Translations under genes and position numbers: made by a program | Notes under the pieces: model-generated | The model's input: the letters and a program-made list of their open reading frames with translations, nothing else | What the model was told of the DNA's origin: nothing | Databases searched by the model: none | In this document: piece after piece, positions 26,452 to 50,400 of the stretch | Layout of the letters: each line of letters opens with the position of its first letter | Position numbering within the stretch: position 1 is the stretch's first letter | Assembly: GCF_014633365.1 (NCBI RefSeq) | Contig: NC_068346.1 | Coordinates: forward strand, 12,979,030 to 13,043,029 | Length of the DNA stretch: 64,000 bases | Direction: 5' to 3' | Origin: Diospyros lotus | Taxonomy: Eukaryota > Streptophyta > Magnoliopsida > Ericales > Ebenaceae

Positions 26452-29400
26452 ATGTCTCAGGTTAATCGATTTTCTTCTCCTCTGTTCAATTCTCATTTTC
26501 TGAATCAGACCAAAGCATGTCTCTCTGTGGTTGGTTTCCTTTTTCTCTATGTTTTCGTGGATCGTTTCGTTGATTTTTTATTGGGCCGATGTGAGCAGAG
26601 TTTGGTTCCTGAGTATTAAATACGTATTTTTGTGTGTATTCAGGGGATTAATAATCTATTTAGCAGTATCTAAGTGAATTCCTATCATCGTTGATTGGGT
26701 TCAACTTCTAGGGTTTCATAGCTGACTTTGAAAAGTTGTGTGTTGGAGGGAAATGATTGACAACATATAACGCATTGTTTTTCGTTAAAAAATATTTTTC
26801 GTTAACTGGACCAACGCGTCTCAATTATGATAGTTCTCTGTGTGTGTGTGTGTATAAATTAATGGACACATCAATTCTTCCTACTTTGAATTCTCCTACA
26901 GATCCTGCAGCGACTTCTTTTCTGATTTCCTTCTTTTCTTCTTTGTTCTTATTCTTTGCCTCTCTATTTGTAAAGCTGAAAAAGAAAAACTGAACAATTA
27001 GATGCAATTAAGGTAATAGAGAAGTTATATCTGACATGAAAATTTTAATATTTTCCCTGCAATCAACTAAGAATATATATATATATATATATATTAGGAT
27101 AAAGTTTCTCATACAAAATGTGACATGACTTCAAAAGTAGGAATATACACAATAGCATTGATATACCAGAGTAATATTGTTTTTCCTTCAATTTTAGGTG
27201 GATAACAGAAATTCTTCGGCAGCCAAGCGAGCTCGAACAGATGGTAATGGGTGCAACAATACTTTGCTTTGTTGGTTTATACACCAATCTATATATGCTT
27301 GCGTTCAATTATTTGCATGTTTTTTATTTATGCATGGATTTTTTTGTATACAAGTTCATAGTATTAGCATAGTTATTATTTCTGTTCTGGCCAATATGCT
27401 CCATACCGGACAAATGCAATACAAATTTCTTTATGTGAAAAGAGATACAAAAGACTCCCCTCTGCAGGGCACAGTGTAACCTTTTGCTTCCCTTTTCATA
27501 GGGACGCAGAGGGTCAATAGGGATACATAACTTCCTTATCAATTAGTTATATACAGATACAAGTATACATAATCAATGATATATAATATAGATATATTAT
27601 AACATATGTTAGTATCAAAATTTATGAATTTTTACCCAGCAAAAAAATAAGTATATGATGCATATTATTTGATTGAAAAAAATTATTTTATCAAGTATTT
27701 AGCCTATATCTTATTTATTATTGAAAGAATTAGGTAGAGAATTATGAAAACATTCCACCTTGAATGATTCATTGAACTATGGAAATATATATACAGAAAA
27801 CTCCTAAAAAATCTGCTAAAAACTCTCCTATCTATCCTCCTATTTTATAGGAGTGGATTACAACACTTTTAGTTATCTACTTTACATATTAGGATTAGCA
27901 AGAGTTCGAATACTGATTTATCCTTATTCTTAGATGGAATTTCTGTTGTGATCTTGATCTTCATTCTCGAGTCATTCATTCTTCCTTATATCCTTCCAAT
28001 ACTTTCCCTTCAAACTGGTGAATGATGTCAATCATTCCCAGCTTGTCTCTAAGCAATTCAAAGCCTTGTTTTTGCATTGTTTTAGTCAAGATATCTGCTT
28101 CTTGACCTTCTGTAGGAACATAAGTGAGTCTTATGTTTCCTCTTTCCATCTCTTGCTTGACAAAATGTCTATCAATTCTCACGTGCTTCATTCAGTCATG
28201 TTGTATTGGATTGTTTACAAAGCTGATAGCTAATTTGCTGTCACTAAAAAGTAGTTTAGGAGATGATATAGGCATAGCTAGATCCTTCATCAATCTTTCT
28301 ATCCATATTATTTCACAAATACCTTGAGCAATGGCTTGATACTCAGTCTCTGCACTGCTGCGAACAACTTGTTGTTTTTTGCTTCTCCAAGTCACTAGAT
28401 CTCCCCACAGCTTGGTACAGTATTCTGATGTGGATCTACTATCATCAATAGAGCCTGCCCAATCTGAATCTGCATAGCCACGGATTCCTCTATCTTATTT
28501 TTCTTGAACATTAGTGTCACGGTCCTAGGCCACAGTGACAATGAGCTAACCGGGGCTCGGTGGTTTAGAAAGAAAATGACAGGTAGGGAGTCGAGTAAGA
28601 AGGTAGAAGAACATAGGATTAGAGAGAATTGGAGAATGCGAGGAAGAGATAGAGAGAAACAGAGTGATTTTTGTATTCAATCTTTTCGTAGCCATCTCCC
28701 ATGGAATGGAAGTAGTACATATAGGCGCGCCGGGTGGAAATAGATGCAGCGGATCCTTTCCTCCATAGTGGTTGCAACAGAATGTTGTCTTTTCCTAGGG
28801 CCTTTACACGTGGCCTCCTATAGCTAACAGAATCTGTTAGCTAGAATATGACTATTAACTGGAATATAAATGCAATAATGGAAATACAGCAAAACAAACA
28901 GAAATGAAAATGCAAAATGGACCATAGCCGTGACAATTTTCCCCCCCCTTAGGACATTTCTTGTCCTCAAGAAATGCCGAGTAGGCTTGCTAATCTTGGA
29001 AAACGCTGGAGTAGGCCTGGTAGATATTCCCACGAGTTGTCCTTGTTACTCCCCTGGTTCCACTTCACCAACACTTCAATTAGAGGGGCCCCTTGGTTGT
29101 GGATCACCCTTCTGTCTATAATAGCTTCTGGTTCCGTCAGACCTTCTTTTTCCCTACACGGTGCTGGTAAGACCGTGTCTGCCGACTCCGCCCCTGTTGA
29201 TCGCTTCAGTAGTGATACATGGAAGACAGGGTGTAAGTGGGAGCCTTCGGGTAGTTGGAGTCTGTAAGCCACCTTACCTATTTTTTTTGCTATAGTGAAT
29301 GGTCCAAAGTACCGAGGGCTCAACTTGGTTACTGCCTCTTGACTGAGGGCCTTCAGGTGAGGGTATCTTAGATTGAGATACACCCTTTCTCCCACTTTAA

Positions 29401-32400
29401 ATTCCCGATCGCTTCTCCTTTTGTCAGCATACTGTTTCATCCTATTCCAGGGCCGATGCCAATTCTTGCTTTAGTTGCTGCAAGACCACCCTCCTTTGTT
29501 GTAGGTATTCTTCCATCGATATCTCTGTTGCATGCCCTCCAGTGGCCGGTAATAGCGGCGGTGGACATCCATATAGTGCCTCATAGGGGGACATTTTTAA
29601 GGATGTATGGTGGGTGGTATTATACCACCATTGTGCCAATGCCAACCACCTATGCCAGTGTTTGGGCTGCTGTATACATATGCACCTTAAGTAGGTTTCC
29701 ACCACCTGGTTGACCCTCTCAGTCTGCCCATCTGATTGGGGATGATATGCTGTTGACATATTAAGCTTAATCCCTATAGATCCTATCAATTCTTGCCAGA
29801 AGTGGCTTGTGAACACCTTGTCGCGGTCTGATATGATGGTGCTTGGCACTCCATGTTGTGATACGACTCTGTCCATAAACATTCTAGCCACTTCCTTGGC
29901 TGTGTAAGGGTGGGCCAGCCCTATAAACTGTGCAAACTTCGTGAATCGATCCACTACAACCAAAATACTATCCCTCCCTTTTGATTTAGGTAGCCCCTTG
30001 ATGAAATCCATGGATACACTAACCCAAGCTCGACCCGGTACTAGTAGAGGTTGTAAGAGACCCGGGTAGGCCACGTTCTCCAGTTTACACCTCTTGCATT
30101 TATCGCATGCCAACACAAAGTTCTTTACGTCTGCCTTCATCTTGGGCCAATAAAACAACTGCCTAACTCGGAGGTAGGTATTTTGGATCCCCAAATGCCC
30201 CCCCACGGGTGAGTCATGCAATGAATGTAAAATCTTCTGCTTAAGGTCCCCCTTGCTCCTTATGACCAGCTTGCCTTTAAACCTCAACATCCCGTCCTTT
30301 AGAGTATAGTTTCCAGCCCTATTAGGTTCCATCGCCAACCTCTCCATTAGCTCCACAATCTGCTCATCGTCGGCATAGCTGTCAACCACCTCCTGAAACC
30401 ATTTGAGAACTATTTTAGTAATAGTTGCCAAGCTGCCTTCCTCTTGACACCTTGATAGTGCATCTGCAGCTATATTTTCCTTCCTTCGCCTGAACTGTAT
30501 GGAATAGTTGAGCCCCATCAGCTTGGCCATGCCTCTTTTTGTAGCTGAGTTTGTAGTTTCTGCTGTAGTAAAAATTTTAGACTTTCATGATCTGTTTTGA
30601 TGATGAATCTACTCCCTTCTAAGTAGTGTCTCCACCTCTCAACTGCCATCAAGACTGCTAGGAATTCCTTCTCATATATGCTCAATCCCAAGTGCCTAGC
30701 TTAAGAATGCTAAAGGCCTACCCTTCTGCATTAGGACTGCCCCTACACCAACTTCGCAAGCATCTGTCTCCAGTACAAAGGGTTCATTAAAATCTGGTAA
30801 CCCTAAAGCCGGCACTGTGCTCACCGCCACCTTAAGCTTCTCAAAGGCTACTTCAGCCTCCTCACCCCATTTGAAATTCCCCTTCTTCAGCAACTCAGTT
30901 AGGGGGCGGTTGATGATGCCATACCGTTTAACAAACCGTCGATAATATCCTGTGAGGCCGAGGAACCCTCTTAGAGCCTTCAAGTTCGCGAGTTTGGGCC
31001 AGTTGATCATGGCATCCACTTTCTTTGGGTCTGTTCTCACTCCCTCCCCCGATATTATATGGCCCAAGTATTCCACTTGATCTTGGCCGAAGCAACACTT
31101 AGTCCTTTTTATGAAAAGTTGGTTGGATTTGAGGACTTCTAGGGTAGTTCTGAGATGGGATAGGTGCTGTTCGAGGTTTGGGCTGTAAACGAGGATGTCA
31201 TCAAAGAAAACTAATACAAATTTTCTCAAATAAGGATCAAATATTCAGTTCATGAGGGATTGAAAGGTAGCTGGTGCATTGGTGAGCCCAAAAGGCATCA
31301 CTCGAAATTCAAAATGTCCATGGTGAGTTCTGAAGGCAGTTTTGTGGATATCCTCAGCTTTCATTCTGATTTGGTGATAGCCCGATCTAAGGTCGAGCTT
31401 GGAGAAAATGATGGCATTATGCAGTTCATCCATTAGGTCTTCTATCAAGGGTATGGGGAACTTGTCTTTTATGATGAGGGCATTCAATTGTCGGTAGTCT
31501 ACACAAAAACGCCAAGTGCCGTCCTTCTTCTTGACTAGAAAGATCGGTGAGGCAAAGGGGTTGTGGCTAGGCCTTATAAAGGATTGGTTTAGCATTTCTT
31601 TTACCATCCTTTCGATCTCTATTTTCTGGATGGGTGAATATCAGTAAGCCCTGATATTTACTGGTTCGGAGTTTGATTTGAGGTGGATGGAGTGGTTTAG
31701 GTCTCGGTTGGGTGGTAAGGTATTAGGCTTAACAAATAAGTCCCCAAATTCTACCAACAGTTCATTAATAAGGTGGCTAGAGTGTACCTGACCAACTTCT
31801 CCATGCTGGCTGCTAATGGATAAGGTGAGCTCCCCGGTCCTCATTGTCTCCTGCCCCTCCTCCCCCGCTACAATCGAAAACAATTGAGTCAGTTTTCCCC
31901 AGTTGTGCCGAAGGACTCGCTGTAGGCTCCTTCCCATCATCATCTTGCAGGCTCCAGTTTCGCACCCTCCTTTGAGTGTCATCTTTTTTCCTCCTTTTTC
32001 AAAAGATACTTCCATACGGTTAAAGTCGAAACTAATGGGGCTGACTTCCTTCATCCAGTCAACCCCTAAAACCACATCACAGGCCCCCAGTTGCAGAAGC
32101 CTGAGGTCAGCTTCAAACTCTTCCCCTTGCATCTCCCAAATAAACCTTGGGCAAGCCGAGTGGCTAATCACTCTACCCCCTATTAGCCACTGTCACACTA
32201 AGGGGTGGAGTATCCGAGAGCGGGCTTCTCAATCTCCTCGCGGTACCCTCATCAAGGAAGCTATGGGTGCTTCCACTATCGATCAAGATCATCAGGTTCT
32301 TGTCCTTCACCTTTCCCTTGACTTTAATTATCTTGTTGTTGGTCACTTCTTTTAACGCATGGAGTGATATTTCTCCATTGTCTTCCTCCCCCAACTCTTC

Positions 32401-35400
32401 CCTCTCAGTAACATCTTCTACCTCTTCCATTGTCTCTCTTGGATCTCCTTCCAGTAGGAGAATTTGTCTCCTACATTGGTGCCCTGGGAAGTACTTATCC
32501 CCGCACTTGAAACACAAACCTGGTTGCCTCCTTTGTTCGTTAAACCTCCCTATGGCCTGAGGTACACCCGGCGGTTTAGCTCCGAGATTACTAACTGCCC
32601 ACTCTTGGTTATATCCTCTGCCTCCCTGATGAGAGGTCCTTGTCGTCATAGCCTTACTCTGCTGCCTCTTCTTCTTCATCAAGGCCTCCACCACCATCTC
32701 CTGCAGCCTCGCGCACTCCACTGCTTGCTCCACTGTTCGTGGTCTGATCATTTTGACCATATGCCTGAGGTCCTCACTTAGTCCACTCAAGAAGCTGGAC
32801 ACGAAGTAGGCCTCTGAGAGATGTGGGTCATGGCTGCTCATAATAGATCTAAGCTCCTCAAACCTTTTCAAGTAAGCGTTCAACTCCCCAACCTGTCTGA
32901 GTTTGTTGAATTCTTCAACAATATCAGACAAACTTCTTTCCCCGAATCTCTCACATAATTTCTCAGTGAATTCACCCCATGTAGGATCGCGCCTTACACT
33001 AATCCACCATTGATACCATGCATCTACTACATCATTAAAGTAAGCGGCAGCTAAGGTCACCCTTCTACCCTCCGGAATGTCATACCATTCAAACATTCTC
33101 TCACCCACCAACGCGGGTTATCCCCTTCAAATATGGGTATCTCCATTCGGGGCATAGGAAATCTCAGCTGTTGTCGAGGTGCCTGCTCCATGCGACCCCT
33201 GTGCAGCATCGTCGCCCCCTCTTCATCTTGTTCCCCTCCTATATCGAGAGTCTCTGGTCGGTGCACTGTTCTATCGTTCCTTAAGAGGGGTTTGGTTCTA
33301 TCTCTAAGAGGGAATTCTGGGGCAATGCTCACCGAATTTTGGCGAGTGAACATCAGCATGAATTACTGTAGTTGCGTTCCGAGTTCCTCTCGCATCTGGA
33401 CTAGCATTCCATCCAGCCTTCTTTCCAGGCTGTCTATCGCTCCTTCCAGCTTGTGGTCCATTGCTATGATCGCCTCATGGTTGTGACCATTTCCCAACTC
33501 CAGCTGGTCGACGCGTCTCTGGACCTCGATCATGGACGAGTTGGCTTGTTGCAACTGTGATTCCATATTCTTCATGCGGGTATAGTCCGCCATAAGCTTC
33601 TATAAGTTTCGGCCAGAATCGAGTCTTTGATACCAAATTGTCACAGTCCTAGGCCATAGTGACAATGAGCTAACCGGGGCTCGGTGGTTTAGAAAGAAAA
33701 TGACAGTAGGGAGACGAGTAAGAAGGTAGAAAGAACATAGGATTAGAGAGAATTGGAGAATGCGAGGAAGAGATAGAGAGAAACATAGTGATTTTTGTAT
33801 TCAATCTTTTCGTAGCCATCTCCCGTGGAATGGAAGTAGTACATATAGGCGCGCCGGGTGGAAATAGATGCAGCGGATCCTTCCCTCCCTAGCGGTTGCA
33901 ACATAATGTTTTGTCTTTTCCTAGGGCCTTTACACGTGGCCTCCTATACCTAACAAAATCTGTTAGCTAGAATATGACTATTAACTGGAATATAAATGCA
34001 ATAATGGAAATACAGCAAAACAAACAGAAATGAAAATGCAAAATGGACCATAGCCGTGACAATTAGCCCCTTCCTGGGTGTTCCTTTGAGATACCTGAGG
34101 ATATGGTGAGTTGCTTTAAGATGTCTTTTAGTTGGAAGATGCATATATTGATTGATAATGCTTAGAACATATGCTATATCCGGCCTTGTGTGGGATAGGT
34201 AGATGAGCTTCCCTACTAGGAGTTGATATCTTCCTTTGTCAACTTGATACTCTTCTTTTCCTTCCTTATTCTTCCAATTGGGCTCTAGGGGAGTACTTGC
34301 TGGTTTACACCCTAGTTTGCCTATTTCCCTTAGCAAATCTAAGGTGTATGTCCTTTGAGTTATGAATATACCTTCCTTGCTTCTAGCTACTTCCAATCCT
34401 AGGAAGTATCTTAATTGTCCCAAATCTTTTACCTCAAATGTTTCCCTCAGCTGATACTTTAATTTTTCAATCTCTTGGTTGTTGTCTCCCGTGATGATAA
34501 TATCATCTACATATACTATCAAAATTGTTCTTCTTCTATCATTTTTGATCTTTGTGATGACAGTGACCTACCTGCCCTTGCTTGTATCCAAGCTGGTGTA
34601 AGGTATCACTGAATCTCTTAAACCACGCACTAGGATATTGTTTAAGACCATACAATGATTTCTTCAGCCTACATACCTTCTCTCTTGTGTCATTCTCCTC
34701 AAAACCAGGAGGTATTCTCATATATATATTTCTTCTTCTAGCTCACCATTCAAGAAAGCATTTTGGATATCCCATTGACGTAATCTCCAATCTAGATTTG
34801 TTGCCATGGATAACAATACCTGGATGGAATTTAGCTTAGCTACTGGAGCAAACATTTCCTCGTAGTCCAAGCCTTGAGTTTGAGTAAATTCTTGGGCCAC
34901 AAGCCTAGCTATGTACCTGTCAATACTCCCATCAACTTTATACTTCATGGTGAACACCATTTGCTACCTACTGTCTTCTTTCCATCTGGTAAGTTTACAA
35001 CTTCCCATTTATCATTATTTTCTAAAGCTTGCATTTCTTCCATGACTGTTGCCTTCCATTTCTCATCTTGTAGTGCATGATAAATGTCTCTAGGAATAGC
35101 CACACTATCAAGACTAATAGTGAATGACCTGAATTGAGGAGATAATTTTGAGTATCCCAAAAAATTTGAAATAGGGTGCTTTGTGCAGGATCTTACCCTG
35201 TTTCTTAGAGCAATTGGGATACCTAGATCATTTTCTTTGTTACCTCCTTCATGTTCCATCCTGTTCAGTGCCTCAACATCATGCAGCTATATTTTTTGGA
35301 CTTATCTTCGGGTTAGATAATTTGGTTGCTTGAGGATCACGAGGCTTTCTGGAATAAACCTTTAATGGTGGTTTATTCTAGACTTGATCATTTTCTAGAA

Positions 35401-38400
35401 TTTTGGTTTTCTCTCTCTCCCCCTTGATGGCGTAGGGTTGAAGGAATAGAATTTGAACTGGATGCAGGAATGTCATTATATGTTTGAGGATCAAGAATAG
35501 GAGCAGGTGATGGATTAGGGTTTGAAGTAGGTGAGAGATCAGCAAGTATAGGACTAATTTGATTCCAATAATCTTTAGCATTGGAGAGGTATTCTCATGC
35601 AAGGAGTTGTCTTGAAAAAATGGTTGATGCTCAATAAAAGAGACATCACAGGACACAATAAACTTCTGGGTAGTAGGATTGTAGCATTTATATCCTTGTT
35701 GAGTAGGAGAGCATCCAACAAAAATGCATTTGAGTGCTTTTGGGTTTAATTTGGATTGTGTAAGTTGGTTTTTGTGTACAAAAATAGTATATCTAAAAAC
35801 CTTAGGAGAGAGGGAGTTTAGAACTCTGGTATGGTGAGGGAAAGTTTCAAGAAAGACATTCAATGGAGTTTTAAACTCTAGAATTTTAGAAGGAAGCCTA
35901 TTGATGAGGTAAGCTGCTGTAAGAACAACTTCTCCCTAATAGGCATTTGGAATTGATTGGGTAAACATTAGAGCCATTTCTGTCTCAAGAAGATGACAGT
36001 TCTTTCAGCTACCTCATTTTATTGGGGGTTATAGGGACATGAGTTTTGATAAATAATATCATGCTCGGTTAGGTATTGATTGAATTCATTGGAAAGTACT
36101 CTCGGCCATTATCAGATCTCAATATATGAATAGATGATTGAAAGATATTTTGCATCATTTGATGAAACCTTTTGAAAATGAGGTAGGCTTCAGATTTGTC
36201 TTTCATTAGGAATACCCTGCTAACTCTTATATGATCATCTATAAATGTGATGAACCATCTAGTGTTAGTTAGATTGGTAGTCTTAGCCAGTCCCCAAACA
36301 TCACTATGAATCAAATGAAATGGTTTTGAGGGTTTATAGATATGATTTGGATGTGAGCTCTTGGTTTGTTTTGTAAGAATACAATGTTCACAATGAAAAT
36401 TTTGAATTTTATTACTAGAAATAGAAGGATACAAAACTCTAAGATACTCAAAGCTAGGATGTCCTAATTGTTGATGCCATAATATTTTGTTAGATTCTGA
36501 AACAGTAACCAAAGAGGATTGAATTGATGACCTAAATTCAGTAGGATGATCAAGTCTTGAAATCTGGTAGAGTTCTCCATTCTCCCTAGCACTGCCAATC
36601 ATCTTTCCCGAGGATAGGTCCTGAAAAACACAATGAGATTGAGAGAATGTTACTACACAACCCCTTTCTTTGGTTAGTTTACTTACTAATAGCAAGTTAC
36701 ATGTTAAATCAGGTACATAAAATACTGATTTTAAGGTTAAGCTTGCTATGTTAGCTGTTCCTTGGCTAAAGAGGTTGTACCATCAACCATAAAAACAACA
36801 ATTCCTTGATCACAAGGTTCATAATTGGATAAGATTTGAAGATAACCTGTCATGTGATCTAATGCTCCGGTATCTATGATTTGAAAGTTTGTAGAGAACT
36901 TTTGAAAGAGTAGAGAGTAATTTGTATTACCTTGTGTCACAACCCCAATGATCCCCACGGCTATAATTGTCATTATATTAGTAGCTAACTTGCATGCATT
37001 ACATAATAATTGTCATTTATTTTTCCTTTTTCTATTATAGAGCTTTGTCCTTAGCTATAGGCAGTTAGACTATTTGTTGTATTGCACATGGGTGCATGTG
37101 GGCAGGCTATTAGACTATATATAAGCCACAACTGAGGATGAGAAGAATTATATTTTAGTTGAAAATGAAGTTTCAATTTCCCTCTCTAGAATTCTCTCCC
37201 AATCTCCCTCTCGTTTCCCTCTGCTCTCTCTAATTTATCTCATTCTCTATTCCGATTCCTTCTCCTTGTTCCTCTGTGATCCTTCCCCATTTCTTGCTGC
37301 ATTTTCCTCCCTCTCCGTCTAATTCCCTTTTGATTTCTCTCAAATTCCAATCCAACCCTAGGCTAAACCATAGGTACACGACAAATTAATATTAGAGCCG
37401 TTGTTCCTCGACTGTGAGCTTGGAAATTCAATAGTTGTCCAGTTCGATTTTAAAGTAATCAAGCCAAATTCGAAGTAGGGCAAATCGGTCATTGGAAGCA
37501 AATTCAGGCGATTCTTAGCAAAGCAGTTGATGATGTGAATGGTAAAAAAACAAAGGCAAGGGTTGTCCAAGAGTATGTAAGTCTTGGGCCAATTACTCGT
37601 TCAAGGGCTAGAGAATTTCAAACGGAGTTTGAGTTATTTATTAGGAAGACTCCAGCCCATTTGGAAGAGTTAGAATTCAAAGTGAAGGAGTTAAAGTCCA
37701 AATTAATCACATTGCTTGTTTGCTCGGAAGCCTAGGACCAAAATGCAATCTAGGCACTCCATGATCAAGCCCAAGCAATCAGCCCATCTGCCAGACCCAA
37801 GTCTCATAACTGATGTCATGGATGATGTCACCATTCATTTGTCCTTTATGTTTGGGAGTGTTTTGTCTTTATGTATCATTGTGTTTTATCATCATGACTT
37901 CATTTGTTAAAAGTGGCATGATGTTTTTCTTTATGCTTTTGGTTTGTCTTTTATCATCGTTAGCCCCATTTTATCAAAAGAGGCAATCATGATTCCATTT
38001 GTCAAAAGTGGCATGATGATGTTTTACTTTATGCTTTTGGTTTGTCTTTTATCATCATTAGCCCTCTTTTGTCAAAAGAGGCAATGATGTTGTCTGTCTT
38101 TAATTATTAGATTTGTCTTTAAGACTAGTATTTATATGTGTGATCTTGTAATGTTTTGGCATGAATATTTTTATGAAGAAAGTGCAGAGAGCATTTTTAT
38201 CCTAATTCTTATCTAAGCAATTCATTTGTTTAGTGGCGAATTTACTTGATTCTTATCACTCTTCCTTCTTCTATCTTAGAGTGTAGCAAATCGAAACTAG
38301 TATTTTCTTGTTTGTGGCGAACTTTCTTATTAAACAATTGGTGCTAGTATTTCTTTTGTATTTTAAGCACATCAATTGAGTGGCGGATTTATGAGATTCT

Positions 38401-41400
38401 AGCAAATATGAGCGAGTAATTCTCGCTCGAGTCTTAAAGGCGAAGTCGGCAGTGACGCTCGATTGTGAAATTTAGTAAGTGTTGGTTAGAAATTGTAGAT
38501 GAACAGCCCAGGTGATTCCAAATTGGAAGGCGTCACGAAGTGAGGTGACTTGTAAGAGGCTGAATTGAGCTGATTAGATCACAAGAAGTTTCGAATTCTA
38601 GCGATCATGGCGGAGAAACAAAGCCAGACGACTTCAACGATATAGTAATTCCGATCACCTCTTGTCTGAATTTCATGGTGAAATAGAGCGAGTGAATCTC
38701 GGAGGCTAGATTAGATTATCGAAGGCAAGGATTCAATTCGCTTCAAAGGCAACTTTGAAGGAACGATTCAATCACAAGAAGCTGATTCTCGGCAGATCAA
38801 TTCCCGACGATTGCTACAGTGTGCGATTAAGGCAGAGTCACTTGAATTCCGAAGCAGAGTCAGTGGCCCCCTGGCCATTGGACAGTGATTGGGGTGTGGG
38901 TCGCAACTGTTGTTAGTCTTGATTGGTGGCGAGTGCAACGATTCTCAAGCTGTGATTGCCCCATTCCATCGTTGCTAATTTTCGATGCAGTGAATCTATC
39001 ATCCTTGTTCAAAAGTGAAAGGAAAGCAAGCAAAGTAGTTCGACTCAAGAATTGAATTCAACGCAAGTCTAGAGAGTTCCGATAGTGATACTGAGTAGAA
39101 CTTAAAGGCATAATCAAAGTTGGGTACGATTTTGGTAATTTTAGTAGTTGATCAATTTTCAGCTATTGATAGGAGATTGTTGTGAAATTCACAAGTGTGT
39201 TCGACTTTTGGCGGCGAGTAGACCTGGGTTTCCAACGCTCCATGATGGTTAATTTTTTATTGTTCATAGGCCATTACTTTTCGATGGCTCTTGGTTCGAA
39301 TTTTGAGAGGCAAAGCAGATCTGGTGAATTTCGTGGTTGCATCAGAGTTGAATTAACGTAGCTGAGCAGTTAATCCTTGGCTGTGGTTTCAATTCGAGTT
39401 GAAGGTTGATGAATCGAGAAAATTTTGCAAGATCAACAATGATGAAAGGGACACGGATGAAGAACCTTGAGTCCTAGGTGCATTAATTCCACTCGACGAT
39501 CAGTGATCTGCAGGCTCGAGTGGAATTACTGGAGATCGGATCCAATCGCAACCATGGTGATGGATCAAAAGTTGGTTACCTCTCTGGGGGGCTTGGAGAG
39601 AAGGTTGGATGGGATCATAGATGAAGTGGGAGCTCAGATGAGGGATCAAGTACAGACTTTCATGGTCATGTTCACTCACCAAAATCAATCATCTCTGAAT
39701 GGATTGACTTCAAATATTCTAGAGAGTACTGGGAATCTTTTGCTACATATTTCTTTGCTCAATTTGGTGTTGCATCCCCTGTTTTTCATTATACAAGAAC
39801 CATTCAAGGCTGCACAATGTACATGGGAGCTTTAATGTTCCCACCATGCTTGACAGAACCATTCAAGGCTGCACAATGTACATGGGAGCTTTAATGTTCC
39901 CACCATGCTTGACACGCTTGCATCTAGAAACTCTACAATAAATAATGTTCCTTCAAGTGGAGTTCAACAACCTGCTGGAAGCCTTTCTAGTGGTCGTTTT
40001 GCCTCAAACAATCTCCCTATTGCCCTTTCTCAGATATCTCATGGTAACTCACATGGTCATTCAAGAGTGACAAACAGAGGTGGAATGAGTGTTGTTGGAA
40101 ACCCTAGATATAGTAGTAGCACAAATGGAGTTGGTGGTTCTATTCCTGGGAGTCTTCCAACCTCTATTGCAATTGGTAACCGGGGTGCTATTCCAAGAAT
40201 GGAAGTATCTCCAATTCTTGGAAATGCAGGATCTCAAATTTCAAGCTCAATAGGAAACATAGTCAGTGGGGGCAACATTGGGAGGAACATGAGCTCTGGT
40301 GAGGTTGCTAGGGCAGCAGATGCAAAGGGACCATCTGATTTTTTTGAAAATGAAGTTCATGTAGAGGGATATTCCAGCAAACACAAAGAAAAATGAGTTG
40401 TTGAATTAATGGCATGGAATCTGGAGGTTCCAACCATAGATGTTAAAGGCGCGCCTAGGCGCAAGGCGCCAGTTCAGCGCCTCGACTAGGTCGAGGCGAG
40501 GCATTTTTCGAGAGGCGCGTGCCTTGCACGGCGAGGTGCTGTGGCATGAGGCGTGCCTACGTGCACCTCATGAAACTAGCTGTCAAGCAACCCGTTGCCC
40601 ACCGAAACCAGCTACCATTCTCGATTCCAACCTCCCCTGTTCTTGGTTCCAACCTGTTCTCATGAGTTTTTTATTTGTTTTATTTGATTAGAATTAGAAT
40701 TAAACAAACTCGATCACAATCGAGTTCAACTTCGGTCTTGTCCCAAACTCGCTACCACCACAGCTCTCCTGAAAAATCTACATTTGGGTCTTGTCCCAAA
40801 TTATTCGGGCTGGGTCAAATAACGAGCTTCATTCTAGAAATCAAGATATACTTCAACAACTTCTTTATTGATTGTGGACTTGTAGTGTTTATGTGTTTGT
40901 TTAGAACTTTACATGATGATTGGTATTTGTTTGAGTTTGAGACTTTGAGTTTGAACTTTGATGATGTTTCTAGTTTAGAATTTGCATGATGAATGAATTA
41001 ACTTTGATGTTGTTAGTTTAGAATTTGAAGATGATAAATCATGAATGATATGCATGTGTTATTATTGATAATTTGATAGTTGTTTATGATTTTATAAGAT
41101 TTTGAGTTTTTTTTCTAAAAGGTGCGCCTCGCGCCTCAAGCTTCAGGACCCTTTGCGTCTCAATGCACCTATCGTCTTTCAGAACTATGGTTTCGATGGA
41201 AAATTCAGTCCACATTAAGGAAGTTGATGTTGTAACTGAAGTGAACTTGTCAATGGTAATTCAAGATTCTGAAGATGATGAGAAGAGGGGAACATATGTG
41301 GTAACTGTGGGACGTGTGCCTTTCAAAATGATCATCATTTGATGGCTTTAGGGTTGCAGGTTTCAGTTGTTAATTATGGCAGGGAGCGACTATATTGATT

Positions 41401-44400
41401 AAAGGCACTTGATGGTGGACATTGACAGGTTTTGGCACCATTTTGGATCCTCAGACCATGAGTACCAACAATCTTAATTGGGTAGCTATTGCAAACCCAA
41501 AGGGAATGGTCTATTACACCTTGGAGGTTAATGCAACCTTGATTGCAATTGTACGAGCTGTGGTGATAAACCGTGGTTTTGTTCCAGTTGATGAGAACAT
41601 AAGGGCAAAGAGGAGAAGGCCTAGATGGAGAAAAAGGGAAAGAGGAATAAACCAGATAGAGAGAGCTGGTATTGAATGAAGAAACAACGGCGCAATGGTT
41701 TTAAGTTCTTGGGGAGAAGAACTCTCTCGAGGAGAGAGAATTGTCACAACCCCAAAGATCCCCACTGCTATAATTGTCATTATATTAGTAGATAGCTTAC
41801 ATGCATTACACAATAATTGTAATTTCCTTTTCCTTTTTCTATTATGGGGCTTTGTCCTTAGCTATAGGCAGTTAAACTATTTGTTGTATTGCACATGGTT
41901 GCATGTGGGGAGGCTATTAGGCTATATATAAGCCATAGCTGAGGATGGGAAGAATTATGTTTTAATTGATAAATGAAGTTATGATTTCCCTCTCTAGAAT
42001 TCTCTCACAATCTCCCTCTCGTTTCCCTCTACTCTTTCTAATTTCTCTCTTTCTCTATTCTAATTCCCTCTCCTTGTTGTTCCTATGTAATCCTTCCCCA
42101 TTTCTTGCTGCATTTTCCTCCCTATCCGTCTAATTCCCCTCTGATTTCTCTCAAATTCCAATCCAACCCTAAGCTAAACCCTAGGTACATGACACCTTGT
42201 TTTGCTAGGGATACCACTGGATTTGTGTTAGTACTTTCAGCCTTATTCACTTTAGTTTGGCTGAGTAATTGCTGTAAAACCTCTAGTTGATCAGCTATTA
42301 AGGTGACATTAGTTGAATTCCCTTTCTCAGCTTCTACCATGTATGTAGACTGACCACCCTTCCTTTGATTCCTTGCATTCCAATATGCTAGTTTTCCATG
42401 GATTTTCCAGCAGTTTTCCTAGTATGATAGGGTTTGTTGCAGTGGTCACACCAGTGTTTATCTTTCTAGACTTCTCCTTTATATGTGGTAGGAAATCTTA
42501 CACGCGAAATATTTAGGGCAGAATTTTGAGTATATACCTCATTGTTTGAATGCCCTGATGCTGGCAACATTACCTTCTTCCTACTCTCTTCTGGTCTTAC
42601 TTCAACAAAGACCTCTCTCATGGATGGGATGGGCTCTGTCTCGAGTAATCTGCCTCTTATCTCATCAAAATTTGAGTTTAGGCCATGTAGGAAATTAAAT
42701 ACCCTTTCTTTCTCCACCATCTTGTCATATTTTCTTCCATCTTCAGAACACTACGATGTAATCTCATGGAAAAGGTCCATCTCTTGCCATAATTCAGTTA
42801 AAGTATTGTAGTACTCAGTAACTAAATTTGTACCTTGCCTTGTGATTCAGATGATTGACTGAATTTGAAAACTTTGGGCTGTGTTTTCAAGGTCTGACTA
42901 GATTTCTTGGACAGCCTTCCAGATTTCACTAGCTGTCTTGTAAAATAGATAAGTTCTTCCAATTTTGGGTTCCATGGAATTGACTAACCAAGCCATAACA
43001 ATGGCATTCTCTGCTTGCTGCCTTGGGACTTGGCTTAAACATAACTCTTGTTAGGTAGCCTACTTTTTCCTTTCCACGAAATACCAACAAAACTGGTTGG
43101 GACCATTCTCTGAAGTTGGTTCCATTCAATTTGTATAGAGTGATTTGAAGAGAATGGCTATCGAGAGCTGTTGGAGTGATTGGAACTTGAGTATTCTTCA
43201 TTAGAGGAGGACTTGTGGTGGAAGTCTCGCTAGCTGTTGGATTCTCAACCATACCGTGAGTGTAGGAGTCCTATATGGACTAGAACACAAGCTATGGGGT
43301 GCCACAAGAACGTGGCTTTGATACCATGAAAGAATTAGGTAGAGAATTATGAAAACATTCCACCTTGAATGATTCATTGAACTATGGAAATATATATATA
43401 GAAAACTCCTAAAAAATCTGCTAAAAACTCTCCTATCTATCCTCCTATTTTATAGGAGTGGATTACAACATTTTTAGCTATCTACTTTACAGATTAGGAA
43501 TTTAGGATTAGCAAGAATTCTGATATTTCGAGACTGATTTATCCTTATTCTTAGATTGAATTTCTGTTGTGATCTTGGTCTTCATTCTCGAGCCATTCAT
43601 TCTTCCTTATCTCCTTCCAACAATTATGAATATTTTTTCATACTTAAAATTTTTAATTTTGTGAGTGATGTTTAACTTCTATTCACCTATTCCTGGTATT
43701 GTACCTGATGACAATTTTTTTATTATATCCAATAAGGTATTAACAATTATAATATGTATTATTAATTTCTTATTGTAATATATCTAAAACATTATCAGAT
43801 ATCATTTATTACTGGTACTGTGCCATACCAATAACAGATCTGGCAACTTCTCTGGTATGATTCTAATGGCTATTAATAGCTTTGTGAAGGTGAAAGAAAT
43901 GGTTTCAGACTTTGCAACAAAATTATTAAATTTCTTTGTTTAGTATTATTTAGAGGATAGTTATGGTGTAGAAGTGATTGGTATTTTCAGCAATGGTTCT
44001 GTCACATGCCCAAGGGTAGCTATGTAATTGTGTCCCTACATTCTGGTAGGATATTTTTTCTTTTGTCTTTATTCTTTTTGTCCTGTAGGTAAGGCGGTTA
44101 CAATGCCTTTGTCCTGTAGCTAAGCGATTACAACTGTGAGCCTATATATTGAGCCACAACTAGATGTTGGATTTCATGAATAGAAATTGACTAAATATTC
44201 TCTAATTCCCTCCTATCTTCTGCTTCTCTCTCTCTCCTTCTCTCTATCCCTTCCCCTCTCTTCTCTTAATTCTTGCTGGTTTCTCTTCAAATACCCCTTG
44301 TCAGATTTAGCAATCTGGCAATTGGTATCGGAGGCAGGCGATTCCTAGCCGTACAATCGGCAACCTAGGTGAAAACAATCGGTTCTCATCAATTGATTAT

Positions 44401-47400
44401 TTTGGTGGGTTGTTCGCAAAAGAAACGGTGATGGCGGAGGGAACTCGGATGAAGCAACTGGAGTTACGGTTGGATGCAATAGAGGCGAGTGTTTGTTAGA
44501 ACCAAGAGGTGTTTGAGGAAAGGCTAGAGACGATGGAACATGGCCTCTGACAGACTCAAGAGGAGGTCAGTCGAGGACACGTAGAGACGATGGCAGTAGA
44601 GAGGAACCTGCGAGGAGATTTCTCCCACCTTCGAGAGGAAATTGCAGGGTTCGGGCAGCAATTAAGCATCGTTTTGGCCTTGTTCTCTAGGCTTCCGAAC
44701 ATGAGCCTGCCGACAGATTTTCCACCAAGGACCAACCCAGCTCCAATACTCGTAGGGGGCTGACTTGAATATCACACTCCAGACCAGGCAGTAGCAAAGG
44801 AGCCACCAGAGATGATGGAACCTGCGACAAGGGGCGCGAAGGCCCATCACACTTGACATCTCGTTGTTCGAAGTAGACATCCCAAGATGGTGGGTTCGCA
44901 GGTGTGAATAGTTTTTAGAGGGGTTGTATATCAATATCGGGTGGCATAAGATCAAAAGGTAAACATAGCGGCGGCATACCTTTATGACATTGGGGATATA
45001 TGGTTTCAAGGGTGGAGTCGAGGAAGAACAATCCTAAGCTTGCCGAAGTTTGTAGAGGGGCTATGCAGGAGGTTCAGAGAAAGAAAGATGGTAGACGTTA
45101 TAGAAGAATTTAACAAAATGAAGCAATAAGGATCGGTGGACGAGTATCTCTCGAGGTTTGAAGAACTTAAGGCGTTGATTGAGATCACTCACCCCACGTT
45201 GGATGAAGCCTACTTCATATCCAGTTTCATCAGTAGGTTAAATGAGGAGTTACGATCGGTAGTCAAGATGATGTTGCCCACTACCATCAATCAAGCTACA
45301 GAGAAGGCCAAGCTACAGGAGTTGGCCCTAGAGGCTATTTTCAAGAAATAGAGGATGTTAACAAGGGGGTTAAACACAAGCAGTCCACATGTAGGAGGCG
45401 GAGGGGAGTTTAAGGTGTCTAGCTCGGTCCAACAGAAAGGGCATACGATGCCCAAAACTACCCAAAATTCAGCTCAGGTGAAGTCACTGTCCTTGGAGCA
45501 AAAAAGGCAACTAGGATTAGTGTTCTAAAATGCGCTAGGCACTAGTCGGGCGCTCGACTAGGGCCTAGCGCTAGGCGGGGCCTAGGAAAACTGTTTTTTT
45601 TTTTTTTTTTTTAACATTTTGATGTTATTTTCAAGTAAATCAAAGTTAAAACAAGTAGTGAAATAATAGAATTATGCTTGAGAAAACAAAGGTAGCTTGC
45701 TGCATGCTACATGTTGGCTTTGTTTCTTGCTTGCTTGCAAGTTACAAATATTAAAATATTTAAAACATTAATAAATATTCAAATAACAAATTCACACATT
45801 AACAAATAATCAAATATTAACATAAATAATAAATTAAATAACGAAAAGAAAAAAGGCAATGGCAAGCAGCAACAATGCTTGTTGCTTGCTTCTTACCGAA
45901 GGGTGAGGAGTGAGGAAGACGAAAGAGAGAACTAGAAAGCAGAGTGGAATGAAGGTCGGCGGCGAGTCCACCATTCACGATGGTCAACGGCGGCGTGCGA
46001 CGAGAAGGCTAACAGAAATAGAAAGCGGCGACAGCGACTTCGCAAGAGACGACGGTGGCGTGCTACAAGAAAGGCTAAGACAGAAAGGGCAAGCAGCGAC
46101 GGTGACGATGACTCCGCAAAAGACAGTCGGTGGCAGTGTGTGAGAGAGAGAATGGGGAATCGACGAGAGAGATAAGGGGTAAGGGGAAACAAAAACTCTA
46201 ATAATCAATTTATACAAAATGGATTTGGCAGCCCAGGCGATTCATGCGGCCTAGGTGGCCAATTAGGCCATAATTGGCTATGTGGTTCACTCGGCTAGGC
46301 GGCCACCTAGTACCGATTAGTCTAGGTCGGTGCCTAAGGGGGCCGATTAGGCCATAATTGCAGCGACCAGTGTCTGTCTAGCGCCTTGGCGCCGCCTAGG
46401 CCGAGTTTTAGTTCATTGGCTAGGATTGTGTTTTCGTTGTGGGGAAAAGTATGGGTTAAGTCACCAGTGCAGGAGACAGTTGCTTCAAATGGAAGGACTT
46501 GAAGAAGATTGAGTAGTAGAAGTAGCAGAAGAATTGGAGGGTGCTAGAGAAGAGGGTGGTGAGATTTCCTTGCATGCATTACAAGGAAGTCCATCTGGGA
46601 AGATAATAAAGGTGCAGGAATTAGTGGGGAAGAAGTGGCTGATGATTCTCATTGATAGTGGAAGTACTCACAGCTTTCTAGATGAAACTATAGTTGAGGA
46701 TTTACAATGGCCAACACAGAAGACACTTCCCATATCGATGATAGTAGCTAATGGCAACAAAATGCTGAGTACGTCAAGGTGCCAAGGGTTTAAGTGGATG
46801 ATGCAAGGGGGAGAGTTCACTGCAGATTTGCGAATCCTAAAGCTGGGTGGCTGCAATATCGTACTTGGGGTGGATTGGATGAAGACGATAAGCCCTCTAA
46901 TCTTCGACTTTAATAAGATAGAAGTTACTTTTGAAAGAGAAGGGAAGAAGCTGACATTGACAGGAAGTGAGGAGACTAGAGAATGCAAAGGATTAACAAG
47001 AAAGAAGATGCAGAAACTAATACAACAAGGGGAGTCCTTGATAGCCCAACTGCACTGCATATATGCAGTCGAAATAGAGGAGGGCAAGAGGGGAACAAGG
47101 AGGCAGCAACAGGCTGGGAGGACAGCCCATGGCCAGCAACGTTGTCCACACTGAACTCACTCACTAAGGTACACTCTTGACTCCCTACACTCACTGTTGA
47201 ATGAATTTGAGGATGTTTTTGTGGAGCCCTCAACCCTCCCTCCAACCTGTTTCCTTGACCATGCCATGCACTTGAAACCTAACACTAATCCTATCAATAT
47301 ACGAGCCTATAGGTATCCCCCAAAACAAAAGTCTGAGAATCTGAGATAGAAAGATTAGTGAATGAAATGCTGTCTAAATCCATCATCCAGCCAAGTCAAA

Positions 47401-50400
47401 GACAAAGCTCATTTGCCTCTCTTATCCTACTAGTCAAAAAGAAGGATGGGATGGCGGTTTTGTGTAGATTGCCATCAACTGAACTCCATCACTATCAAAA
47501 ACAAATTTCCCATCCCAATTATTGAAGATCTCCTCGATGAACTAGTCGGAGCCACAATTTTCTCAAAACTCGACCTTAGATCTGGGGACCATCAAATTCG
47601 GATGAGACCTAAGGATGTGCACAAAACAGCCTTCAAGACTCATCAAGAACTCTGAATTTTTAGTAATGCCCTTTGGTTTGATTAGTGCTCCTGCAACATT
47701 CCAAGTCTTGATGAACCACATCTTTAGCCCTTACCTAAGGAAATTCATCCTTGTGTTCTTTGATGATATCCTTGTTTACAGCCCATCCTTGGACCAACAC
47801 CTAACCCATTTGAGGGTAGCCTTTGAAATTCTCAGATCCAATCAATTGTTTGTGAAGGGATCCAAGTGTGCCTTTGCTGAAGCAAAAGTGGAGTATCTCA
47901 GCCATGTAATCATAGGAGAAGGGGTGAGTACGGACCCCAAAAATATTGCAACCATGTTAGAGTGGCCACAACCACAATCAGTCAAGGAGTTAAAGGGGTA
48001 TTTTAGGCCTGACAGGGCATTACAGGAGGTTCATCAGGAACTATGGGATTATTAGTAGGCTGCTGATAGATCTACTCAATAAAAATAACTTTGGTTGAAT
48101 AGCAATGCAGAAGAAGCATTTCAAACCTTGGAAAAAGCTATGACACAGGCCTCAATATTGGCCGGCCTTGATTTTTCAAGGCCCTTTATTCTAGAAACAA
48201 ATGCTTGTGATTCAGGGGTGGGTGCCGTTTTGGTGCAAGAGGGGAAGCCTTTGGCCTTCTTAAGTCAAACTTTAGCTCCAAAACACTTTGGTTTGAGCAT
48301 ATATGACAAGGAGTTGTTGGCAGTCATAATAGCAGTAGAAAAAAGGAGATATTATTTGGAAGGCAATCAATTCATAATCAAGACCGACCATGAAAGCCTT
48401 AAGTTTTTTTTACAGCAGAGGCTACATACTTAGTTGTAAAAAAAATGGGGTGTCTAAGCTACTCAGGTTGGACTATGTAATACAATATCGAAAGGGGAAG
48501 GAAAACACAATAGCTAATGCATTATCCTAGAGGGAAGAGACGGTTGAGTGTCTCGCAATATCAGTTGTGATCCCTGAGTGGGTTAAGGAAATTTCTGCCA
48601 GTTACAAGCAGATCGCGTGGGTATAATATATCATCGCACAGTTGGCGGTTCACCCTTTAAACCAGGCCGGTTATACCTTAACAGCAGGGGTTACTACGAT
48701 ACAAGGGAAGGTTGGTGATAGGAGATGACAACCTTCTCAAGGAAAGGATCCTTCAGTCCCTACACGACTCTCCTATAGGGGGACACTCAGGTATGAATGT
48801 TACATACAATAGGGTAAGACAATTGTTTTATTGGCCAGGGCTCAAGCGAGATGTGACCGCTTATGTCTTGAAGTGCTCCACTTGCCAACACTGCAAGCAT
48901 GAGTAGATTCCTTACCCAGGGCTGTTGCAGCCACTCAGCATACCTGAGCAAGCATAGGAACAAATTTCCATGGACTTTGTGAAAAGGTTGCCCAAATCAG
49001 AGGGGAGGAATGTGATCCTTGTGGTGGAGGACAGATTGACCAAGTTTGGTCACTTCTTGGCCTTGGCACCCGTTCACAGTATCAGAAGTTGCTAGGGTGT
49101 TACTAGATTTGGTTGTTAAATTACACGGGCTGCCTCTATCCATTATTTCTGACAGGGATAAGATCTTCACTAGCAACTTTTGGCAGGAATTATTCAAGAA
49201 TTTAGGGGTGAAATTACACATGTCAACCGCCTATCACCCGGAAACGGATGGACAAACGAAAAGGGTGAATCAATGCTTGGAGTCGTACCTCCGGTGTGTT
49301 TGTTTTGCTAAACCTAATAGTTGGAACAAATGGCTACCCCTAGCCCAATGGTGGTACAACACCAGCTTCCACAGTTCACTGAAAAGAATCCCATTTGAAG
49401 CCTTATTCGGTTACAAACCCCCTATTCTTCCTGCTGTTATGCAGTACTCGAATGTAGAGTTGGCAGCGAACCATTACTTATAGCAGCAACAGGAAGCTCT
49501 ACAGGTAATTAAGAGAGAACTAACTACTGCACAAAACCAAATGAAGTAGATGGCTGACAAGAGGAGAAGGGATGTCATTTGACTTGGGGGATAGGGTGTA
49601 CTTAAAAGTTAAAGAGGTTCCAGCAACATCTCTTCTCTAATAGTCCTCCCTCCAAGCTGAGCCCCAAATACTATGGCCACTTTCCCATAGTAGCAAAAGT
49701 AGGGGAGGTGGCCTATAGATTACAATTACCGGAGGGCGTATCAATCCACCTAGTTTTTCATGTTTCTCTGTTGAAGAAAGTCATTGGACAAATGGACAGC
49801 ATCACTGTGGATATTTCATCACCATTGGAAGAGGTGGAGGCTAGTATAGAACCCTGGCCATATTGGAAAGAAGAGTAATTTATCGGAACTCCCTGCCAAT
49901 GACTCAAGTTTTGCTGCAATGGGCCCATCTACATCTCGATCATACTACCTGGCAATACCTCCCAGACCTCCTCAAGCAATTTCCTCGGATGGCACAACTG
50001 TTATGATTTCTTGAGGATAAGCAATGTGTTAAAAGTGGGGGAAAGTTGTCACATGCCCAAGGGTAGCTATGTAATTGTGTCCCTACATTTTATTATGATA
50101 TTTTCTCCTGTCTTTATTCCTTTTGTCCTATAGCTAAAGTGGTTACAATGCCTTTTTCCTGTAGCTAAGCGGTTACAGTTGTGAGCCTATATATTGAGCC
50201 ATGGCTGGAGGTTGGATTTTATGAATAGAAATTGACTGAATATTCTCTAATTTCCTCCTCTCTCTCTCTCTCTCTCCTTCTCTCTATCTCTTCCCCTCTC
50301 TTCTCCTAATTCCCGTTGGTTTCTCCTCAAATACCCCTAGTCAGATTTAGCAATCTGACAGGGTTGAGTTGATTATGACTTGTTGAGCCCAGTTTTCTTC

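Follow-up and report, generated by a model that had tools for sequence, protein, structure and literature searches.

Exons of the host gene NOT2 lie inside a multi-copy family of non-autonomous LTR retrotransposons, and the edges of the captured piece point to a two-step transduction, in which a spliced fusion RNA would have formed first and a template switch would have followed, a course of events that we regard as probable. The copy in the window (the whole 64,000-nucleotide stretch of DNA that was analysed, G000:C9 of a 630-Mb plant genome) is degenerate and does not have one open frame (Table 1). Exon capture by plant LTR elements is usually argued from exon-only content. Here the donor gene, capture-free relatives and many sister copies are found in one genome, so that the position of each junction can be fixed to a single nucleotide; one falls on a splice site and one does not, which makes an old capture question testable.

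Table 1. Features of the window element, its surroundings and the two host genes (positions refer to the window)
Feature	Position	Strand	Remark
Chromovirus A gag N-terminus, relative of the element gag	33336..33593	-	AAAATTCG^GTGAGC at junction position
Target-site duplication CCTTG, left copy	36930..36934	.	directly outside 5' LTR
5' LTR (TGTCACAACC..GACA)	36935..37383	+	449 aligned sites, K2P 0.093 to 3' LTR
Decayed primer-binding region	37384..37403	+	L010, L018 and L031 have TTGGTATCAGA at or near the LTR end
gag N-terminal region, frame broken, ends ..CACCAAAATCAA	39403..39688	+
gag/NOT2 junction, first base of NOT2-A exon 2	39688..39689	+	GTRAG here in 14/21 non-NOT2 gags
NOT2-A exon 2 part	39689..39795	+	alignment to host gene
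NOT2-A exon 3 part, first portion doubled, fused directly to exons 2 and 4	39797..40033	+
Exact 59-bp tandem duplication (39796-39854, 39855-39913), in exon 3 part	39796..39913	+
NOT2-A exon 4, first 268/382 nt	40034..40301	+
Module X, belonging to a large family of non-autonomous LTR elements	40302..40431	+	83-91% to L054-L058, L060, L061; 79% to L059
Later GGCGCG-rich insert splitting module X; 20-nt imperfect inverted ends (AACCATAG..CTATGGTT)	40432..41192	.
Remainder of module X and basic 3' end of element ORF	41193..41679	+	85-88% to sisters L011, L023; ~88% to L058, L061
Purine-rich tract (GAGGAGAGAGAAT) ahead of 3' LTR	41729..41741	+	read by position as polypurine tract
3' LTR	41742..42194	+
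Target-site duplication CCTTG, right copy	42195..42199	.	directly outside 3' LTR
Copia element hit by the insertion, gag side (Retrotran_gag_3)	42195..43270	-	protease side 36072-36934
NOT2-A	L025, C1		exons 2-4 = 109, 179, 382 nt
NOT2-B	L028, C3		exons 2-4 = 109, 179, 379 nt

The element in the window

The first-pass annotation, made from the letters of the window, had described an LTR pair enclosed by a CCTTG duplication, a gag start that is cut short and an element without pol, all of which are borne out. The LTRs have TG..CA ends and differ at 39 of 449 compared sites (K2P 0.093), from which rates of 6.5e-9 and 1.3e-8 substitutions per site per year would give the insertion an age of roughly 7 or 3.6 million years. 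When the flanks are joined at CCTTG, they restore one open minus-strand frame of the copia element in which the element is nested, so that its ends are exact. Within 36935-42194 no tblastn match at E ≤ 0.01 was obtained with the 15 gag/pol ORFs of the window's other elements. With its paired LTRs, the duplication at both ends, a chromovirus-related gag, no pol of its own and copies elsewhere, the element is a non-autonomous LTR retrotransposon related to Ty3/chromoviruses, and its enzymes would have to come from pol-bearing relatives. One relative in the window, chromovirus A, has LTRs at 28515-28949 and 33639-34075 and matches to the Ty3 capsid, RT, integrase and chromodomain; its gag matches the window gag (tblastx E 2.3e-16) and that of the sister protein P0084 (44%, E 3.7e-22). 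The region is flanked by two Ty3-type elements with LTR pairs, at 28515-34075 (minus strand) and 44000-50360 (plus strand).

The sequence TTGGTATCAGA of L010, L018 and L031 is the usual initiator-tRNA-Met primer-binding site. The leader encodes at 37454-37735 a peptide resembling the end of a Ty3-type pol, and the leader may therefore itself be a recombinant piece. Frameshifts, stops and the exact 59-bp tandem duplication break the window gag and NOT2 parts, which do not form one open frame. The duplicated unit is single in all seven sister loci and the two host genes that match it, and as its two copies are identical although the LTRs have diverged, the duplication is probably younger than the insertion of the element. 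The insert of about 760 bp at 40432-41192 is missing from the corresponding place in the database protein P0036 and has no match in 32 of 33 loci compared, L011 having pieces of it only elsewhere; it is probably a small DNA transposon, and an 8-bp duplication that has since decayed may be represented by the words that flank it, GTTCCAAC and GTTTCGAT. The 3' part of the element (41193-41741) is, along most of its extent, about 88% identical to the X-bearing loci L058 and L061.

Host origin of the NOT2 piece

A host origin of the piece, claimed in the first-pass annotation on the basis of the ordered blocks of plant NOT2, is confirmed by 84 protein matches at E ≤ 1e-3 among 168 candidates (query ORF 39854-40396; best E 2.5e-55), the named ones being mostly plant NOT2/VIP2 and many carrying no informative name. 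The ORF has no Pfam match at E ≤ 0.1 and thus no NOT2_3_5 domain; this known domain of NOT2 lies C-terminal. A viral-contig scan with the same ORF found no relative. In many unspliced genomic frames the NOT2 match breaks at shared residues, near 42/43 and 102/103 of the NOT2 reference, which indicates introns there, and the window piece runs unbroken across both places. At least 113 matches were obtained in the element's own genome (150 of 265 candidates scored), and two NOT2 paralogs, A and B, were found there, both with introns. Aligned with exons 2-4 of NOT2-A, the window piece is 92.8% identical over 558 aligned sites and has no introns 2 and 3, which upholds the proposed origin from spliced RNA. 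The extent given for the piece, 39689..40350, stands at its start and is corrected at its end, which lies at 40301, everything from 40302 onward being module X. Three findings that the first-pass annotation had named as speaking against it, namely no NOT2 match, intron remnants in the piece or a gag-NOT2 junction absent from all sister copies, were each looked for, and none was obtained. As a separate observation, the Camellia sinensis gene models P0013, P0065, P0082 and P0083 contain further partial NOT2 copies, one of which is fused to a protein-phosphatase N-terminus.

Sister copies and spread of the chimera

Stretches of about 9 kb around 20 NOT2-matched places comprise the two host genes and 18 loci with the captured piece, which therefore occurs in at least 18 further places of the genome besides the window; together with the window copy these are referred to as family 1. 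The gag-NOT2 junction recurs in the sisters: gag adjoins NOT2 in 15 of the 18 loci, is displaced in L014 and L024 and matches elsewhere in L017, which is also without the exon-2 end of the piece. The piece has moved together with its LTRs, as LTR-like direct repeats surround it in 10 of 18 loci (L009, L010, L015-L018, L021, L023, L024 and L026; a short piece only in L023) and no clear ones are seen in the other eight. Eight sister LTR pairs were aligned, and K2P is 0.03-0.13 in seven of them, the value for L010 (0.219) being left out as it derives from chained pieces. An internal deletion between nt 104 of exon 2 and nt 98 of exon 3 is common to L013-L015, L018, L019, L021, L022 and L026, with near variants in L016 and L020; its presence in whole groups of copies shows that it was the chimera itself that multiplied.

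The family-1 pieces all derive from NOT2-A, 18 of 18 copies being nearer to it (86.5-92.8%) than to NOT2-B (75.6-81.5%). Between the window copy and NOT2-A exons 2-4 there are 140 shared 21-mers, the longest exact run being 68 nt, and 17 other copies compared share 8-70 each; such identity may bear on small RNAs, and the first-pass annotation had suggested that the transcript could act on host NOT2 mRNA by sense homology. A single open frame through gag, NOT2 and X is retained in 3 of 18 loci (L018, 442 aa; L019, 398 aa; L021, 405 aa). Open frames that run from gag into NOT2 across this same junction are also found in the database as the proteins P0084 and P0085, and the NOT2-X junction is present in P0036 and P0039. 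The P0084 gag finds its best matches in this genome at 85-91% identity, which suggests that the chimera family probably exists outside this genome too.

That a NOT2 retrocopy or genomic fragment was inserted as DNA into an existing element is very improbable. The window element did receive a later insert (40432-41192), but introns 2 and 3 are absent from the NOT2 piece, no poly(A) is seen at its edges, and the same two junctions, with gag and X adjoining NOT2, are found across the compared copies. Capture by a Pack-type TIR transposon was ruled out by the absence of introns 2 and 3 and by ends that are LTRs, and a LINE-type processed retrogene was rejected, there being no poly(A) at 40301 and gag and X adjoining the piece.

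Cargo or working protein

In family 1, pN/pS is 0.49 for gag (95% resampling range 0.32-0.81; 5 copies) and 1.13 for the NOT2 part (0.78-1.85; 8 copies), two sets that overlap only in L018, L019 and L021, and the gag value equalled or exceeded the NOT2 value in 2 of 1000 resamples. These sets, from which frameshifted or stop-bearing copies were excluded, represent 5 of 14 gag, 8 of 18 NOT2 and 7 of 9 X modules inspected. Values of 0.82 (7 copies) or 0.58 (5 copies) were obtained for X and 0.23 for the host genes NOT2-A versus NOT2-B, and narrower sets gave 0.37 for gag (L016, L018, L019, L021) and 1.24 for NOT2 (L018-L021). The NOT2 part is thus unconstrained while gag is constrained, which argues that it is cargo and not a working NOT2. 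It might still be proposed that the NOT2 part is retained for a protein function, for example as a Gag-linked NOT2 mimic acting on the CCR4-NOT complex, and the three open gag-NOT2-X frames as well as two separate captures of NOT2 paralogs would be in keeping with this; against the difference in pN/pS between NOT2 and gag in the same family, and with the window piece having no Pfam match, such a role is quite improbable. The pN/pS of the NOT2 part counts against a role as protein, not against effects at the RNA level.

The 5' junction

At the gag-NOT2 join the chimeras read ..CCAAAATCAG/TCATCTCTG.. or close variants, and exon 2 of NOT2-A starts as ..TCTGCAG|TCATCTCTG. Of the 18 copies in which the 5' junction is visible (17 loci and the window), 17 have a NOT2 match that begins at exon 2 nt 1, the exception being L014, where it starts at nt 3. 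Gags without NOT2 read ..CCAAAATCAG^GTAAGT.. or similar where the chimeras switch. Among 21 such gags, comprising chromovirus A and 20 mostly higher-scoring matches that are not NOT2 places (from 150 scored of 1775 candidates), GT is found at the junction in 16 and GTRAG in 14, with no NOT2 exon match, and GT is missing in L035, L039, L042, L043 and L044. The closest non-NOT2 gag among those read, L037 (80-86% at the nucleotide level), ranks first for all 7 copies tested; its alignment extends as far as the junction, where it continues with CAG^GTAAGC; the GT-less L042 is second closest for 6 of the 7. The motif is not confined to this position: across 934 aligned columns, six reach GTRAG in at least 5 of 17 sequences, the junction being one of them with 11 of 17 and the others having 12, 8, 7, 6 and 6, and at the junction GTRAG may be kept by QVS codons. 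As a donor motif of gag and the first base of a host exon meet at one point, splicing fits, and it offers the best reading of the 5' junction; the element thus seems to have acquired NOT2 by way of a spliced fusion RNA. It thus joins a putative element donor to a host exon start, as expected of transduction.

A pattern match (ATGTCAGGGTTACTTAAT/GT) some 4.6 kb ahead of exon 2 gives a candidate exon 1 of NOT2-A. In the intron 1 between them no sense gag relic or sense element was found, so that the founding insertion is not seen. This would suit a fusion RNA made in trans, the element RNA having been spliced to NOT2-A pre-mRNA without the element ever being inserted at NOT2; since trans-splicing between such RNAs is rare and the insertion allele, if old, may no longer exist, we consider this rather unlikely. 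Intron 1 also contains, in antisense, a relic LTR of a related element (about 71%; L025 oriented 3490-3816, about 200-500 nt before exon 2).

The 3' junction and module X

The transition from NOT2 to X lies at the same place in 19 of 19 copies compared. NOT2-A reads ..AGCTCTGGTGGGGG.. here, the chimeras ..AGCTCTGGTGAGGTTGCTAGGGC.. or variants, and the X parents ..(GA/AA)(T/C)CAGGTTGCTAGGGC.. or variants. NOT2 and X meet within exon 4, where no splice logic applies and the AG is retained, which speaks against intron removal; a second splice at this point was accordingly rejected. The 3' junction is probably the product of template switching. The first-pass annotation had attributed the whole capture to template switching during reverse transcription, which agrees with this edge and does not by itself explain the other, where the gag donor motif meets exon 2 nt 1.

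Searches of the own genome show X to be native to elements, with at least 150 matches listed, some of them chimeras (150 of 348 candidates scored). The X-bearing locus L054 includes X in an ORF of 552 aa, for which no Pfam match was obtained. A protein search with gag plus X gave nothing at E ≤ 1e-3 among 609 candidates of about 440-1400 aa, so that X is not nameable from the databases. The idea that X is a second host gene was discarded: NOT2 was not matched at E ≤ 0.01 in any of the 8 X loci read, X is a highly repetitive sequence, and it continues into the 3' end of the element.

Proposed course of the capture and known parallels

In the transduction that we favour, a transcript started in the LTR and carrying the gag start would have been spliced from the gag donor (CAG/GTAAG) to the exon-2 acceptor of NOT2-A, giving, as judged from the sequence, one fusion RNA of gag and NOT2 exons 2, 3 and 4. 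This RNA would then have been reverse-transcribed together with the RNA of an X-bearing non-autonomous element, minus-strand synthesis being initiated on the X element at its 3' end and switching inside exon 4, to yield 5'LTR-gag-NOT2-X-3'LTR. The subsequent multiplication is visible in the chimeras at no fewer than 18 other places and in the deletions common to groups of them. Both junctions might instead have arisen by template switching of reverse transcriptase between element RNA and a NOT2 transcript, as the 3' junction has this character and CAG is common to the gag site and the intron-1 acceptor; with both splice sites ending in CAG, gag RNA switching at CAG to unspliced NOT2 RNA would leave the same bases. 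The 5' junction would then lie on splice sites by chance, with CAG aiding, and two coincidences would be needed, the switch having to hit a conserved GTRAG column in gag and, in NOT2, precisely the base with which an exon starts, which makes this reading unlikely.

The two-step model of oncogene capture places template switching at the 3' end. By analogy, the closest mechanism to the proposed transduction would be that of the avian and murine acute transforming retroviruses, with which it appears to share vector-to-host splicing, a donor in gag and missing viral genes. An oncogene can be captured as a result of LTR read-through in which vector and cellular splice sites are joined, acute transforming retroviruses mostly lose viral genes and depend on a helper, and the alpharetroviral splice donor is located within gag (PMC4276931). 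In contrast to the retroviral oncogenes, the present case concerns a plant retrotransposon with unconstrained cargo that spread in the germ line and a fusion RNA deduced from sequence alone; it links plant retrotransposons to the retroviral oncogene route.

Among plant elements, maize Bs1 is not known to have a pol of its own. It is described as an LTR element with exon-only pieces of host genes (PMC13317346, PMC4717578). Bs1 holds pieces of three genes, whereas here pieces of two paralogs of one gene are found in two families and a junction is defined by a splice site. The TRIM elements with captured exons, such as soybean GmaRetroS15, are not known to have a gag. Their captures are exon-only and nearly all present in two or more copies (PMC4717578). 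Those TRIMs measure 1.2-1.4 kb, whereas the elements here bear gag and measure about 3.4-5.4 kb, some having long ORFs. For the NLR genes of pepper, LTR-mediated retroduplication is reported to have captured spliced host mRNA, with copies inside LTR elements (PMC5664825); these are genes, some of them functional, whereas in the present case only part of a gene was joined to gag. As capture routes, PMC13317346 gives transduction, abnormal template switching and transduplication, and in the openly licensed literature searched no plant capture defined by a splice donor was found.

A second capture and further families

NOT2 exons were captured at least twice, from two paralogs. Four loci, L030-L033 (those read of about 20 places with such a match span; family 3), carry NOT2-B exons 4-6, with exons 4/5 joined in L030, L032 and L033 and 5/6 in all four, and their LTR pairs have K2P of 0.011-0.084. 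In exon 4 all four are nearer to NOT2-B (89-94%) than to NOT2-A (78-80%), and in a tree of exon 4, made without L029 (exon-4 piece of 34 nt), host B and family 3 split off with a support of 100; the nearer paralog and this split set family 3 apart from family 1, so that NOT2 must have entered the element group on no fewer than two occasions. On the A side of the tree, where several branches are weakly supported, family 1 does not separate from host A, so that a single family-1 capture is argued from the shared junctions. The NOT2-B exons were taken up separately by a related family, whose 5' junction begins 9 nt into exon 4 with no clean splice edge. The ORFs of L030 and L031 continue into a Ty3 capsid domain. 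The family-1 piece with the exon-3 deletion was re-used in L029, in another ORF of 584 aa (one read of about 16 places with a 35-72 match span).

Two captures from two paralogs raise the question of why NOT2 was taken. One speculative answer, doubtful as it stands, is that a lineage which takes NOT2 exons repeatedly (two paralogs, at least two families, a third re-using the piece) does so because the element would profit from nucleotide identity to a broadly needed host mRNA, for instance if small-RNA silencing of the element thereby became costly to the host (camouflage), the gag donor serving as a standing capture device.

Together with L054, the loci L029-L031 are non-autonomous LTR elements with long ORFs of 552-584 aa, two of which have a basic ..KAGI[GD] tail, and they seem to form a modular group of elements that exchange segments. 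Compared with L028 6981-7066, L030 and L033 miss about 84 nt of NOT2-B exon 5, which begin with GCAGTG and end near TTTTCCTCAG, resembling a GC-AG exonic intron removed from the captured RNA.
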